DNA of 64,000 nucleotides from Rhodococcus rhodochrous (GTDB lineage: Bacteria; Actinomycetota; Actinomycetes; Mycobacteriales; Mycobacteriaceae): NCBI RefSeq assembly GCF_014854695.1, contig NZ_CP027557.1, positions 1,860,001 to 1,924,000 on the forward strand, written 5' to 3'. The notes under the pieces were generated by a model that made no database searches, was not told the origin of the DNA, and saw nothing but the letters and a program-made list of their open reading frames with translations. Positions 5,662 to 21,091 of this stretch are shown here, in pieces. How positions within the stretch are numbered: the stretch's first letter is position 1; every line of letters begins with the position of its first letter. A program made the position numbers and the translations under genes.

Positions 5662-5959
5662 CGGTGGCCCCGGAGGTCGAAGAGACCTCCTGATGAACAG
5701 TCACCCCGGAGTGAGCGAACCGGAAGGTTCGGGATCGATGGTGTGTGCGTGTTCTTTGAGAACTCAACAGTGTGCCGATGAATGTCAGTGCCAAATAATA
5801 TTTGGTGCGGCCATCGAATTTGTTCGGTGGTTGTTGCTGGACATCGCATTCTTCCGTCTGCGGTGATCCAGTGTTTGAGCTAGTTTGAGTTTGTATGCTA
5901 GTGATTTGACTCTTGTGTCTTTGACTGATTACCTCGCTTCGGTGGGGAATCTTGAGTCT

Positions 5960-10911
<4,952 letters not shown>

Positions 10912-14563: not shown

Positions 14564-16111
14564 TCAGTCCGCGAGCGGGGTCGCCAGCCGGGTCGGTTCG
14601 GAGCGGCCACGCAGGGTGATCTCCTCGCCCAGCTCCCACCGGGCGCGTTCGTCCTCCGGGGCGAGCTGCACGGTGCGGGCCGACGCCGCGACGTAACCCG
14701 GAACGGTCTTCGCGAGATCGGACAGTCTCGCGGCTTCGTTGACCGGATCGCCGATCACGGTGTACTCGAAGCGTTCCTGAGCGCCGATGTTCCCGGCGAC
14801 CGCGCGACCTGCCGTGACCCCGATACCTGCGCGACACTCCGGCACTTCGTCGGCGAGGCGTCGTGCCATCCTTCTCGCCGCGCCGAGAGCGGAGCCGGCG
14901 GCGTTGTCGAGGGCGACCGGCGCCCCGAAGATCGCGAGCGCCGCGTCGCCCTCGAACTTGTTGACGAATCCTTCGGCCGCGTGGACCTCTTCGACGACGA
15001 CTGCGAAGAATCGGTTGAGCAGCGCCACCACTTCGGTGGGCGGGCGACTCGCGGCCAACGCGGTGGAGCCGACGATGTCGACGAACAACACCGCGACGTC
15101 CCGTTCTTCGCCGCCGAGGACACCGGGATTGGCCAGCGCCGCGGCCGCGACCTCCCGTCCGACATGTCTGCCGAACACGTCGCGCAGCTTCTCGCGTTCG
15201 CGCAATCCTTCGGCCATCCGGTTGAATCCCGTCTGCAACTGCCCCAATTCGGTTCCGTCGTAAACGACGACCGCGGTGTCGAAGTCACCCGACGCGATTC
15301 GCTGCATCCCGGCGCGCACCGATTCGATCGGCGCGATCGTCGACCGGATGGTGAGGAACATCAGCAGCGAGCCGGTGAGCAGACCGAGTCCGCCGATGGC
15401 GAGGATCGTGATCGCCAGTCGCGTGGGCGTGACGGGACGGATGAAGCTGAAGACCGCGATGAACAGCAGGCCGACGACGGGCACCGCGCTACCCAGGGCC
15501 CAGGCGAGCATCACCCGTCCGGTGGTGCCGGCCAGTCGCGGACGGCGAGGCGTTCCGACCTCGAGCGCGCGCGCCGCGATGGGGCGCAACGCGAAATCGG
15601 TGAACATGTACGCGAATCCGCACACCGTGACGCCGGCCAGGGTGATGGTCAGCGCGACCTTCGGGATCGTCTGTGGGTCGATGACCCCGAAACCGACGGT
15701 GAACAGGATCAACCCGATGAACCACAGTGCTCCTTGCTGGAGGGTGGTGCGCCAGGGCATCCGCAACGCGATCCGCTGTTCCTGCGGGGTGGGTGGGCGG
15801 TTCTCCAGCGCCCACCGCAGCCTGCGGAGCGTCGCCCGGGTACCGAGTACCGAACCGACCACGACGGCCGAGACCACGTAGACCGGAGCGAGGATCGCGG
15901 TCACGATGAGGAAATCGGAGCTCAGCACGGACGGGCCCGGGATCACGACGTTGATGAGAGCAGCCACGATCAGGGCACCGACGAGATGCGTACCGATGAG
16001 CGAGAACGTCAACAGGGTCTGGATCCGGATGCGTTGCCGTCGGATCGGTTCGGCAGGCTCTCCCAGGATCGCCGATCCGAGCGGGGCCGTGCGGTGACTG
16101 CGTGCGGGCAT
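14564..16111 (-). CDS. Membrane-bound class III adenylate cyclase with HAMP domain
   Basis: 515 aa. The N-terminal half has about six transmembrane helices (e.g. VGALIVAALINVVIPG, LWFIGLILFTVGFGV). A HAMP linker follows (IRSTIAPIESVRAGMQRIASGDFDT), then a C-terminal cyclase domain. The catalytic residues are present: metal-binding Asp in VLFVDIVGST and GDAALAIFG, the substrate-specifying Lys in NKFEGDA, and the Asp/Asn/Arg set in TVIGDPVNEAARL. This combination predicts cAMP synthesis. The architecture matches the M. tuberculosis Rv1318c-Rv1320c cyclases, which sit at the same relative place; here there is one copy. It is divergent from nucS. Confidence 0.93.
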   Translation of the reverse strand: MPARSHRTAPLGSAILGEPAEPIRRQRIRIQTLLTFSLIGTHLVGALIVAALINVVIPGPSVLSSDFLIVTAILAPVYVVSAVVVGSVLGTRATLRRLRWALENRPPTPQEQRIALRMPWRTTLQQGALWFIGLILFTVGFGVIDPQTIPKVALTITLAGVTVCGFAYMFTDFALRPIAARALEVGTPRRPRLAGTTGRVMLAWALGSAVPVVGLLFIAVFSFIRPVTPTRLAITILAIGGLGLLTGSLLMFLTIRSTIAPIESVRAGMQRIASGDFDTAVVVYDGTELGQLQTGFNRMAEGLREREKLRDVFGRHVGREVAAAALANPGVLGGEERDVAVLFVDIVGSTALAASRPPTEVVALLNRFFAVVVEEVHAAEGFVNKFEGDAALAIFGAPVALDNAAGSALGAARRMARRLADEVPECRAGIGVTAGRAVAGNIGAQERFEYTVIGDPVNEAARLSDLAKTVPGYVAASARTVQLAPEDERARWELGEEITLRGRSEPTRLATPLAD

Positions 16112-16153: not shown

Positions 16154-16828
16154 GTGCGTCTTGTGATTGCCCGTTGCCGTGTGGACTACATCGGACGCCT
16201 GACGGCTCATCTGCCGACGGCCCGACGTCTCCTCCTCGTCAAATCCGACGGTTCGGTGAGTGTCCACGCCGACGACCGTGCCTACAAGCCTCTGAACTGG
16301 ATGAGCCCACCCTGTTGGCTCGAGGAGGAGTCCGTCGAGGACGCCGAGGCCCTGTGGGTGGTCACCAACAAGGCGGGTGAGCAGCTCCGGATCACTCTCG
16401 AGGAGATCGACCACGATTCGAGCCACGAGCTCGGTGTCGACCCCGGCCTGATCAAGGACGGTGTCGAGGCGCACCTGCAGGAACTTCTCGCCGAGCACGT
16501 CGAGACCCTCGGGACGGGCTTCACCCTCATCCGGCGCGAATACCCCACGGCGATCGGCCCGGTGGACCTGTTGTGCCGCGATGCCGACGGAGCGACCGTC
16601 GCCGTCGAGGTGAAGCGCCGCGGCGAGATCGACGGCGTGGAACAGCTCACCCGTTATCTCGAACTGCTCAACCGGGATCCGCTGCTCGCACCCGTCAGTG
16701 GCGTGTTCGCGGCCCAGCAGATCAAGCCGCAGGCACGGACGCTGGCCACGGACCGCGGCATCCGCTGCCTCGTGCTCGACTACGAGGCGCTGCGGGGTAC
16801 CGAGAGCACCGAGTTCAGATTGTTCTGA
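16154..16828 (+). CDS. nucS: Mismatch-specific endonuclease NucS (EndoMS)
   Basis: 224 aa, almost collinear with M. tuberculosis NucS (Rv1321). The N-terminal DNA-binding/dimer domain contains [17 protein letters not shown] and [17 protein letters not shown]. The C-terminal RecB-like nuclease has [26 protein letters not shown] and [17 protein letters not shown] and K of the active site are present. It ends ...STEFRLF, a tail resembling a sliding-clamp-binding peptide. In actinobacteria lacking MutS/MutL this enzyme carries out mismatch repair by cutting both strands at G-T type mismatches. GTG start 42 bases from the divergent cyclase gene. Confidence 0.97.
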
Positions 16829-18184: not shown

Positions 18185-18694
18185 TCAGCCGGCGGTGCCC
18201 GGCGCAGACGCTCGCGGCGCGGTATCGCGGTCGGCGATCGCCTGGCGCACCTCGTGGACGGCCGTGCGGATGGTGTCGCCGTAGGGATCGTCGGGGAGCG
18301 CGGACATGTGGTCCTGCCCGCGGTCGAGATGTTCCGCGGCCGCCCGGAACGACCCGAGGCGGCGGAAGTCGTCGGCCAGGTTCAGGTACAGGCTGGGATA
18401 GAAGCCAGCGACCCGGAGGGTGTCGTGGTGTCGTTGTGCGCGCCCGTCGGTGAGGGCATCGGCAGCGTCGAGGGCGCGGACATTCCAGACCAGGGACTCG
18501 GCGGGATCGTCGTACAGATCGGCGAGGTAGTGCGCGAGCGTGCAGCGATGGAACGCGTCGCCCGCCGCACCGATCCGCTCCCAGAGGGACAGCAGGTCGC
18601 GCCGGGCCGACTCGGTGTCGCCGTCGCGGCCGCGAAGGACCGCTGCGCTGATCGCATCCATCGTGGGATCGGGTCTCGAGGGGGAGGTGGACAT
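18185..18694 (-). CDS. TPR-like small protein downstream of the MerR/clamp fusion
   Basis: 169 aa, start ATG after CAGGAG. The protein is all-helical in appearance with repeated AAxxRG.D..ARRDLL and LAHYLADL..., LYLNLADDFRRLGSF patterns resembling tetratricopeptide repeats. It lies 44 bases downstream of the MerR/clamp gene on the same strand, probably one transcript. No enzymatic motif seen. I have the impression that similar pairs occur in other actinobacteria, but cannot check it here. It may bind a partner protein; function unknown. Confidence 0.75.
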   Translation of the reverse strand: MSTSPSRPDPTMDAISAAVLRGRDGDTESARRDLLSLWERIGAAGDAFHRCTLAHYLADLYDDPAESLVWNVRALDAADALTDGRAQRHHDTLRVAGFYPSLYLNLADDFRRLGSFRAAAEHLDRGQDHMSALPDDPYGDTIRTAVHEVRQAIADRDTAPRASAPGTAG

Positions 18695-18738
18695 GGTGGG
18701 GCTCCTGTCGAGGGATTCGGCAGATCGGGGACGCTGCG

Positions 18739-19794
18739 TCAGGGGGCACTGCGCGGCATGACGAGCGTGGTGAGATCCCCGTCTTCGGCCGACCGGACGG
18801 TGACCGGCAGATCGGTATCGCGCACGTCGAGCATCAGGTCGTCGCCGAGCGCATGACTCCAAGCGGGATACACGGTGACCAGGTCGAACCAGATCGTCAG
18901 CTCCGGTCCGGTGGCCGTACCGTCGAGCGGTGCCTCGTCCCCGTCGGGGAACACCAGGACCGGCCCGTCGGGGGAGGTCCGTAGGCCGACCGTCTCCGGT
19001 GCTCGCTGTTCGAGCACCGTCACCACGCGGCGTTTGCCGAGGGTGACCCGCTGCGTCACCGCGGGGAGAGATTTCAGGAGGAGGTGGTGGTCGGGGAACG
19101 GCTCGGGGAACAGACGGCAATGGAGGACGTCGCCACTGGAGGTGCGGAAGGTGACCGCCCGCTCGTCCGCTTCGACGGTCACCGACGGACTGCGTCGGAG
19201 CCGGGAGGTCGCGACCCGCAGGTCGTCGCCGGAGAGTGTGCCGGCCCAGGACGGGCAGGTCGGATCGGTGGGCACGAGTGTCCGGGTGGCGAGCCGGTAC
19301 CGGTCGGTGGCGGTCAACCTCACGCAGCCGGACTCGGTTTCCATGTGCACGCCGTTCAGCACCGGGATGTCGGGGTCGTGACCGGTGGAGGCCGAGACCT
19401 GATCGACGGCACCGGCGAGGACGGGCCCGGGCACCGTGCAGACCGCGCGACGTGATTCGGCCCGCAGGGACGCGCCGAGTGTCTCGGCGGCCCGTCGGAG
19501 CCTCTCGGCCTCCGTGGTCATCCCGGCGACGTGCTCATCGAGCAACCTCGCTGCCTCGTCCGCGTCGGCGGCGAAGAACTCGCCGATGGTGGGCAGCGGC
19601 ATCCCGATCTCCCGCAACTGCCGCAGCCGGCAGGCGCGGGAGACCTGGGATCGGCTGTAGAACCGGTATCCCGTCGACGGATCGACCTGCGCGGGGCGCA
19701 GCAGGCCGGCGTCGTCGTAGAACCGCAATGCGCTCGCGGTCAGTCCGACGAGTTCGGCGAACACGCCGATCGACATCATCTCCGGGTCGGTCAC
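18739..19794 (-). CDS. MerR-type DNA-binding domain fused to DNA polymerase III beta-clamp domains
   Basis: 351 aa. Residues 7-65 are a MerR winged helix (SIGVFAELVGLTASALRFYDDAGLL, TGYRFYSRSQVSRACRLRQLREIG), followed by a helix of about 45 residues that should dimerise. From about residue 120 the sequence changes to sliding-clamp type: DQVSAST..., PVLNGVHMETESGCVRLTATDRYRLATRTL at 144-173, CRLFPEPFPDHHLLLKSL near 228-245, and the end DLTTLVMPRSAP, all as in domains II and III of DnaN. Clamp domain I is missing, its place taken by the MerR part. A true replication clamp is encoded elsewhere, so this is a specialised paralogue. Function unknown. Confidence 0.85.
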   Translation of the reverse strand: MTDPEMMSIGVFAELVGLTASALRFYDDAGLLRPAQVDPSTGYRFYSRSQVSRACRLRQLREIGMPLPTIGEFFAADADEAARLLDEHVAGMTTEAERLRRAAETLGASLRAESRRAVCTVPGPVLAGAVDQVSASTGHDPDIPVLNGVHMETESGCVRLTATDRYRLATRTLVPTDPTCPSWAGTLSGDDLRVATSRLRRSPSVTVEADERAVTFRTSSGDVLHCRLFPEPFPDHHLLLKSLPAVTQRVTLGKRRVVTVLEQRAPETVGLRTSPDGPVLVFPDGDEAPLDGTATGPELTIWFDLVTVYPAWSHALGDDLMLDVRDTDLPVTVRSAEDGDLTTLVMPRSAP

Positions 19795-19849
19795 CGGCCC
19801 ATCATGGAGCCTCGACCGACTCGAAGGTCAAGCCCGAGGGCGGCGACCG

Positions 19850-21091
19850 TCAGTTGCGGACCTTGCTGGCCACGGCGGGGGAGCGGCCCTGCACCCCGGA
19901 ACCGACCGAGGGTGAGCGATGCGGTGCCGAGGCGTTCGGCGTGCGCGGCGTGGACTGCGAGCCCTGCCCGCCGGTGTTCGGCTGCGCAGCCGAGTTCGAG
20001 CCGGATGCGGAACCGGGGGCATCGCTCGTCGGGATCCGCACCGTCCGGTCGGCCTGCGGCAAGGGCGTGGTCTTGTCGGTCTGCGGCAGCGGCGCGGTCT
20101 TGTCCGCCTTCGCGTCGGCCTCGGTGGGTGCCGGCTCCGTCGGGCTCTCGTCGTCCGCGCCCTTCTCGTCGCCGCCCTGCTTGTCGCGCGCCGTGCCGAG
20201 GACGGTCGTGCGGGGCTCGTCGAGCGAGATCTCCCGGTCGAGCAGTTCGCCTTCGCGGTTGATCGCCGCGAGGAGGGTGGGGACGTCGTCGAGCTGCTCG
20301 CGGACGGCGTCGAGCTGGCCGAGGATGCGTCCGCGCAGCACGCGGAGTTCCTCCGTGAGGTCGCGCGCGTTGGCGACCTTCCGTTCGGACTGTTCGGTGG
20401 CGCGGCTGAGCCGTCGTTCGGCTTCCTGCGTGGCCTCCTCGACACGGCGTTCGGCCTCGGCCTTGCTCGTCCGTTCGAGTTCGTCGAGGGCTCCGAGCAG
20501 CTTCGTGCGACGCTCGGCCATCGTGATCTCGAAGTCCTGCTGCACCTGCTCGCGCTTGGCCTCGGCCTCGGCGTCGAGTCGCTCGGCCTCCGCGCGGGCC
20601 GCGGCCACGATCCGCTCGGCCTCGGCACGGGCCGCGGTCATCGTCCGCTCGTGCTCGGCCGCGAAGGCGATGCGGGTGTCCTCGAGTTCGGCGAGCTTCT
20701 TCTCGTAGTCGCCCCGGAGGCGGATGCCCTCCTGCTCCGCCAGCGAGATCATCTCGGCGGCGTCGGCCTCGGCGCGGGCACGAAGCTCGGAGGCCTCGTC
20801 GGAGGCGAGACGCAGCATCCGCGAGATGCGGTCGCTCATACCCTCGGCGGTGGTGGGCGGCACCGACAGACGGTCGACGTCCTTGCGGAGTTCGTCGATC
20901 TCGTTGCGGGCGTTCTCGAGCTGACGGGCCAGATCGCGGGCCTGCGCGGCGGCGGCGTCGCGGTCGGTGGCGGTCACGCGCAGCTCGGCCTCGAACCGGG
21001 CGAAGTAGTTGGTCACCTCGTCGCGGTCGAATCCCTTCCGCACGATGGAGAACGGCAGGTGGCTGGGTGCGCGATCACGATCGAAGACCAT
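19850..21091 (-). CDS. DivIVA-domain coiled-coil protein
   Basis: 413 aa. The N-terminus has the DivIVA membrane-curvature/growth-pole motif LPFSIVRKGFDRDEVTNYFARFEAEL (residues 12-37). About 250 residues of Ala/Glu/Arg-rich coiled coil follow, then a disordered Pro/Ser/Thr-rich tail. In the tail a short unit DKTxPLPQxD repeats (DKTAPLPQTDKTTPLPQAD, then RTVRIP). Probably a cytoskeletal-like protein at the cell pole or septum; it is larger than Wag31/SepIVA and not obviously either one. Monocistronic, just downstream of the epimerase gene on the same strand. Confidence 0.85.
   Translation of the reverse strand: MVFDRDRAPSHLPFSIVRKGFDRDEVTNYFARFEAELRVTATDRDAAAAQARDLARQLENARNEIDELRKDVDRLSVPPTTAEGMSDRISRMLRLASDEASELRARAEADAAEMISLAEQEGIRLRGDYEKKLAELEDTRIAFAAEHERTMTAARAEAERIVAAARAEAERLDAEAEAKREQVQQDFEITMAERRTKLLGALDELERTSKAEAERRVEEATQEAERRLSRATEQSERKVANARDLTEELRVLRGRILGQLDAVREQLDDVPTLLAAINREGELLDREISLDEPRTTVLGTARDKQGGDEKGADDESPTEPAPTEADAKADKTAPLPQTDKTTPLPQADRTVRIPTSDAPGSASGSNSAAQPNTGGQGSQSTPRTPNASAPHRSPSVGSGVQGRSPAVASKVRN

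Follow-up and report, generated by a model that had tools for sequence, protein, structure and literature searches.

A MerR-type regulator whose effector domain is probably a sensor derived from half of the DNA sliding clamp

What can a protein do that joins the DNA-binding head of a MerR regulator to part of the bacterial replication clamp? The question is raised by a gene in a 64,000-nt stretch of the Rhodococcus rhodochrous genome (contig NZ_CP027557.1), which is referred to here as the window. The gene and the parts of its product are as follows.

18739..19794, minus strand: MerR/beta-clamp (domains II-III) fusion gene, 351 aa, GTG start, TGA stop
19570..19776, minus strand: MerR winged-helix domain, residues 7-75 (Pfam MerR_1, 2.4e-15; PDB sequence matches)
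19465..19563, minus strand: long helix, residues 78-110, predicted in the AF2 model where the MerR dimerisation helix would be
19060..19455, minus strand: clamp domain II, about residues 114-245 (profile and fold; border approximate)
18742..19059, minus strand: clamp domain III, about residues 246-351 (profile and fold; border approximate)

The winged helix was N-terminal in 82/82 fusion relatives by Pfam MerR_1, and its PDB sequence matches were BmrR, BrlR, CueR, EcmrR and TipA. Regulators of the BmrR, TipA, EcmrR and BrlR type resemble the fusion in the MerR head (best PDB matches, about residues 4-118) and in carrying a C-terminal effector domain, but the effector domain of the fusion is a sliding-clamp half; no BmrR- or TipA-type drug-binding domain was found among its Pfam matches. 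Domain II carries LTATDRYRL and FPD, both belonging to subsite I of the clamp's binding pocket, and domain III ends in the pocket's LVMP and has lost the residues of the dimer interface. Profile alignment, the AF2 model and structure and fold matches all supported the clamp fold, as anticipated by the sequence-only reading, which had placed clamp domains II-III after the MerR part and named a structure prediction as the check on that fold. That reading had also put the MerR head in the place of clamp domain I; DnaN has three domains per subunit, and the alignment of the fusion with DnaN indeed begins at DnaN position 123. The true dnaN gene is separate in the same genome, at about 3 kb on contig C1. 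Chance similarity to the clamp was ruled out by profile and fold, and an assembly joint, a concern raised from the outset, by the recurrence of the same junction in many independent genomes. The union of a MerR head with clamp domains II-III is thereby confirmed as a real architecture.

Among 18 genomes of the genus, nine full-length copies of the fusion (the window's included) and two shortened ones were found, and in a class-wide draw at least 29 of 394 genomes had a single match that began at or before residue 10 and reached residue 240 or beyond. In a scan of contigs from all species, the best 80 of 570 matches included full-length or nearly full-length copies from Rhodococcus, Mycolicibacterium, Actinomadura, Thermocrispum, Kocuria, Nocardioides, Gordonia, Brevibacterium, Streptomyces, Nocardia, Nocardiopsis and others; all bear actinomycete names, one of them (L062), titled Rhodococcus, being labelled Cyanobacteriota in the tree. 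The reference set comprised 109 relatives whose match spans from before residue 10 to past residue 240, four of them outside 330-400 aa; it left out the window's own copies (L002, L112), decayed or cut copies (L007, L025, L049, L048, L094, L110) and L138. When 296 genomes were drawn across the phylum at E 1e-30, a threshold at which weaker fusions could be missed, the listed matches covering both halves all lay within the window's own class, and those listed from other classes were confined to one part, either the clamp part (two starting at 77-82) or the MerR part. Rows of the window's genus were scattered in the tree of alignment A2, for example near Thermocrispum and among Streptomyces, with bootstrap not settled; this scatter points to horizontal transfer. 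Four comparisons gave dN/dS values of 0.12-0.36 (MerR half) and 0.21-0.33 (clamp half), which indicate purifying selection on both halves. A phage origin was rejected: viral contigs gave 19 loci, all matching from query residue 87 or later and none with a winged helix, and a phage collection gave three matches limited to residues 1-71.

To describe what the clamp half has kept, pocket and interface residues (E. coli numbering) were taken from the accessible part of a review, in which the LF anchor of clamp-binding motifs docks in subsite I (PMC11139829). Counts refer to alignment A2, which holds the window protein and 81 of 105 others after thinning of near-identical rows. At subsite I, T172, R174, P242, M362 and the shared P363 were invariant (82/82 fusions), L155 and R176 were each present in 81/82, and position 175 was Y in 78/82. 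Position 174 is R in actinomycete DnaN, and positions 152 and 246, part of subsite I in E. coli, are conserved neither in actinomycete DnaN nor in the fusions. Subsite II, which accommodates the Gln of the usual clamp-binding motif, was rewritten: N320, invariant in 31 DnaN sequences, was E or D in 59/82 fusions, Y323 was T in 65/82 and V344 was D in 51/82, and position R365 was variable (R or K in 44/82). The window protein has D304, T307, D328, R348 and S349 at the changed positions. The pocket residues, whose retention the sequence-only reading had asked to be checked, are thus kept in subsite I and not in subsite II, and the proposed binding of ordinary clamp partners becomes doubtful with the rewriting of the site that takes the motif Gln.

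Of the columns conserved in the 31 DnaN sequences at 3.4 bits or more, those still conserved in the fusions numbered 9/11 at subsite I, 1/5 at subsite II and 20/83 elsewhere, most other DnaN-conserved columns having decayed. In a permutation test that treats columns as independent and ignores relatedness, subsite I differed from all others at p = 1e-4 (0.001 and 0.002 at two stricter thresholds). Conservation of the pocket may in part be memory of the fold, its columns being conserved in DnaN too. Collectively, these counts suggest that selection has kept a ligand anchor site while the features of the ring decayed.

The losses outside the pocket concern the ring itself. Interface residues I272/L273 fall in an alignment gap in most fusions, and E304, present in 31/31 DnaN, is changed. 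Position 198, basic in 31/31 DnaN, has gone from K to D in 52/82 fusions, position 268 is E in 70/82 and R269 is mostly E, Q or D. Positions 198, 205, 268 and 269, conserved as basic in DnaN and acidic or neutral in the fusions, presumably line the clamp's DNA channel; arginines 174 and 176 are kept. Net charge has a median of -8 in the fusion clamp half, the same as in DnaN domains II-III, so the loss of basic residues alters the charge locally and not overall. Given the absence of domain I, the deletions and substitutions at the domain III interface and the acidic or neutral residues at several positions that are conserved as basic, ring formation by the clamp half appears unlikely, contrary to the clamp-like body pictured in the sequence-only reading. 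Since the requirements for a ring have been lost and the ligand pocket is partly kept, the clamp half is probably a sensor. The architecture, the clamp fold, the loss of ring features and the constraint on subsite I are all results of sequence comparison or prediction.

The region ahead of the fusion gene carries three elements.

19826..19831, minus strand: -35 element TTGACC, 37-38 nt upstream in 102/109 upstream regions
19810..19826, minus strand: putative operator inverted repeat, family consensus CTTCRA-n5-TYGAAG, within the 19-bp spacer
19801..19806, minus strand: -10-like element CATGAT, 6 nt ahead of the start codon

The family layout is TTGACC TTCGAGTTGGTTGAAGCCC nATGAT followed by 6-7 nt and then GTG or ATG, and the site in the window runs from 19831 to 19801. 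Among 109 upstream regions, which include the window's and some same-species copies (84 unique sites among 103), TTGACC with at least 5 of its 6 letters stood 37 or 38 nt from the start codon in 102; in three of the remaining seven, a diverged -35 element occupies that place. A spacer of 19 bp is the length found in MerR-activated promoters, and promoters of the BmrR and TipA class likewise have a long spacer containing the operator. By sequence, a 19-bp spacer with an inverted repeat between -35 and -10 matches the MerR-type operator layout. Conserved upstream motifs, suggested earlier as a route to the operator, thus yielded a likely one, TTGACC-19 bp-nATGAT with its inverted repeat. Covariation within the repeat was weak: of nine column pairs, only 7-21 was clearly above shuffles (p = 0.0015), pair 11-17 was borderline (p = 0.051) and the remaining pairs were not above shuffles. 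No AGGAG-like site was found ahead of the fusion's GTG in the window, which fits the leaderless message predicted for the fusion, its transcription start being inferred.

A search of the window's own genome for the -35 element plus repeat with up to 3 mismatches, in which weaker sites would be missed, returned one exact site, the one described here, and two 3-mismatch matches. With a weight matrix, the 84 unique sites scored 21 or more (these being the matrix's own training sites) and 18 MerR-only control loci scored -37 to 3.7; one site above 12 bits was detected in the window, and a second matrix site in none of 226 fetched loci. The single exact site and the lack of a second matrix site suggest that the operon is very likely self-regulated and the regulon small.

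Promoter sequence is also the subject of one decayed copy. L049 from Rhodococcus gordoniae, which is the same as L007, lacks about 124 codons of its clamp half, and about 106 bp at 5898-6003 correspond to window positions 19851-19747, the best match being inverted (95%). The inverted stretch holds the entire promoter and the first codons; decay by inversion at the switch itself is perhaps what happened. In L006 (genome G005, same genus), the fusion stops after about residue 196 and continues into sequence of the TPR-like gene downstream, again a decayed copy. Two of the 18 genus genomes thus hold decayed copies, and the system appears dispensable. A further copy (L127, G320:C1:1950670-1951706) is frameshifted or decayed, with the fusion split across two frames near residue 176 and the downstream gene in pieces.

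That downstream gene is the one recurrent neighbour of the fusion.

18185..18694, minus strand: TPR-like partner gene, 169 aa, 44 nt past the fusion stop; AGGAG at 18702-18706

A TPR-like gene lay immediately downstream on the same strand in 68/80 loci by tblastn, four of these matches being under 100 aa, and in 47 loci by a cruder clustering of called ORFs. No TPR match was found in 12/80 loci, and the distant fusion subfamily L130-L141 has no TPR neighbour; the partner is therefore not required. Diverged TPR forms detected by profile search adjoin fusions of 34-36% identity and sit on two plasmids. The AF2 model of the window's TPR-like protein, built with 49 rows (alignment A4), was all helical with a pLDDT of 91.8, and TPR proteins were among its weak fold matches, none below E 0.001. 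A family member was present in 87/394 class genomes, and the family also occurs without the fusion. Clustering of neighbours in the 80 loci, which are the best 80 of 570 matches and hence the nearest relatives, some on short contigs, gave no shared gene set apart from TPR; the largest other clusters held 5 to 8 of 80 loci, mostly from Nocardia or of common families and in varying places. The promoter layout, the conserved partner gene and the single exact operator in the genome were likewise read from sequence or predicted. Assignment to a defence system was rejected: the sole PADLOC result was a match of 33 bits between the MerR part and mad1, and the TPR protein had none.

Plasmids carry the pair as well. 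On plasmid pADI95-16b (L172, 1-2493), a fusion and TPR pair is preceded by a gene for DNA polymerase III alpha, which ends about 3.6 kb before the pair, and then by a hypothetical gene, which ends about 2.5 kb before it. L173 and L174, on Streptomyces and Kitasatospora plasmids, have fusions of 34% identity, and a TPR relative of 217 aa, similar in the two plasmids, comes after each of them; transposase genes flank the pair of L173. Four of five plasmid-record relatives are annotated as MerR family transcriptional regulator and one has no annotation; in these records, then, the clamp half has gone unnoticed.

The reading that we favour, at a probability of roughly 0.57, is that the fusion is an autoregulated MerR one-component regulator with a domesticated half clamp (domains II-III) as its effector domain, controlling its own operon through a ligand of the pocket. 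MerR proteins bind as dimers and activate transcription by ligand-induced untwisting, and by analogy with them two copies of the fusion would associate by way of the MerR helix and occupy the inverted repeat within the 19-bp promoter spacer of the fusion gene. Binding of a ligand to the clamp pocket, with subsite I as anchor, would alter the MerR dimer; the altered dimer would untwist the overlong spacer and turn on the leaderless fusion-TPR operon. The response to the ligand would be more fusion and more TPR protein.

Candidate ligands are clamp-targeting peptides of the griselimycin type and clamp-binding proteins. We tentatively entertain the first as one possible specific form, in which the fusion would be a target-mimic antibiotic sensor: a decoy of the DnaN drug pocket would bind clamp-aimed natural products and trigger a TPR-led response. 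Its ligands would be of the griselimycin or mycoplanecin kind, or ones differing at the subsite II end. In the accessible part of PMC10817943, griselimycin and mycoplanecin occupy both DnaN subsites and mycoplanecin A hydrogen-bonds Arg365. The window protein has serine (S349) at that position, where R or K occurs in 44/82 relatives, and the window copy may therefore have a ligand other than these very drugs.

In an equally tentative reading, the ligand would be a protein that binds clamps (a polymerase, a repair protein or a clamp-loader protein) or the C-terminal peptide of such a protein. The fusion would then read the level of free clamp partners, and with it the state of replication or repair. 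Three genes lie close to the fusion in the window.

16154-16828, plus strand: NucS mismatch endonuclease (NCBIfam NF002876), with the clamp-binding-like C-terminus EFRLF, about 2 kb from the fusion
14564-16111, minus strand: membrane adenylate/guanylate cyclase with a HAMP domain
19850-21091, minus strand: DivIVA-like gene adjoining the fusion promoter on its upstream side (match below the Pfam cut-off)

The retained dock for the LF anchor, as the accessible part of the review describes it, and the nearby NucS speak for a protein ligand, but the altered subsite II (N320 to E/D, Y323 to T, V344 to D) speaks against it and NucS adjoins the fusion in only 2/80 loci, both Rhodococcus. Links to NucS, TetR, DivIVA-like, cyclase or glyoxalase-like neighbours, at 1 to 3 of 80 loci each, were rejected. 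Fusion-less TPR relatives add a second argument: several have a uracil-DNA glycosylase (ung) gene directly upstream, Pfam UDG was found in all four such loci picked by eye, and about ten of 30 loci look alike. This adjacency is no more than a hint of DNA repair; at two further fusion-less TPR loci, the gene upstream encodes a subtilase or an acetyltransferase instead. TPR paralogues directly after the glycosylase gene include L155, L160, L166, L168 and similar loci of genus g28, where a fusion copy (L114) is also present whose upstream sequence is identical to that of L051 from Streptomyces.

A two-protein feedback switch, in which the TPR partner itself would control the fusion by docking inside the clamp pocket or close to it, is unlikely. 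Such docking would suit a gene that is immediately downstream on the same strand in most loci and has a diverged form even beside the 34-36% identical fusions. However, no clamp-binding-like motif was seen by eye in the TPR consensus, and each partner exists without the other. Less probable still is a clamp half that is a mere structural remnant, aiding dimerisation or stability and binding no ligand: decay of the ring features would be expected of a remnant, but subsite I is nearly invariant while most else drifts, and the dN/dS of the clamp half is low, at 0.21-0.33. That the fusion still acts as, or loads onto, a clamp at a promoter or fork is highly improbable, the kept domain II-III fold being outweighed by the missing domain I, the lost interface and the basic residues turned acidic or neutral.

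With DnaN the fusion has in common the domain II-III fold and subsite I, but it is without domain I, has lost the interface and several conserved basic residues, and has a rewritten subsite II. GriR and MypR, as described in the accessible part of PMC10817943, are second DnaN copies in the griselimycin and mycoplanecin clusters that serve self-resistance. Like the fusion, they are duplicated clamps used beside replication; they are DnaN genes, whereas the fusion is half a clamp with a DNA-binding head and its own promoter. A literature search that left out preprints and covered few subscription journals found no published account of MerR/half-clamp fusions, and in the accessible part of PMC7762955 the clamp is mentioned only in a reference title.

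If the proposed mechanism is correct, the replication clamp would join the repertoire of MerR effector domains, as a clamp taken off DNA and turned into a sensor. The pocket of the fusion is the one to which the clamp-directed antibiotics griselimycin and mycoplanecin bind, and the system could therefore be a natural reporter for clamp-binding compounds or proteins. Should the antibiotic-sensor form hold, it would be a resistance regulator that senses with a piece of the drug's own target.
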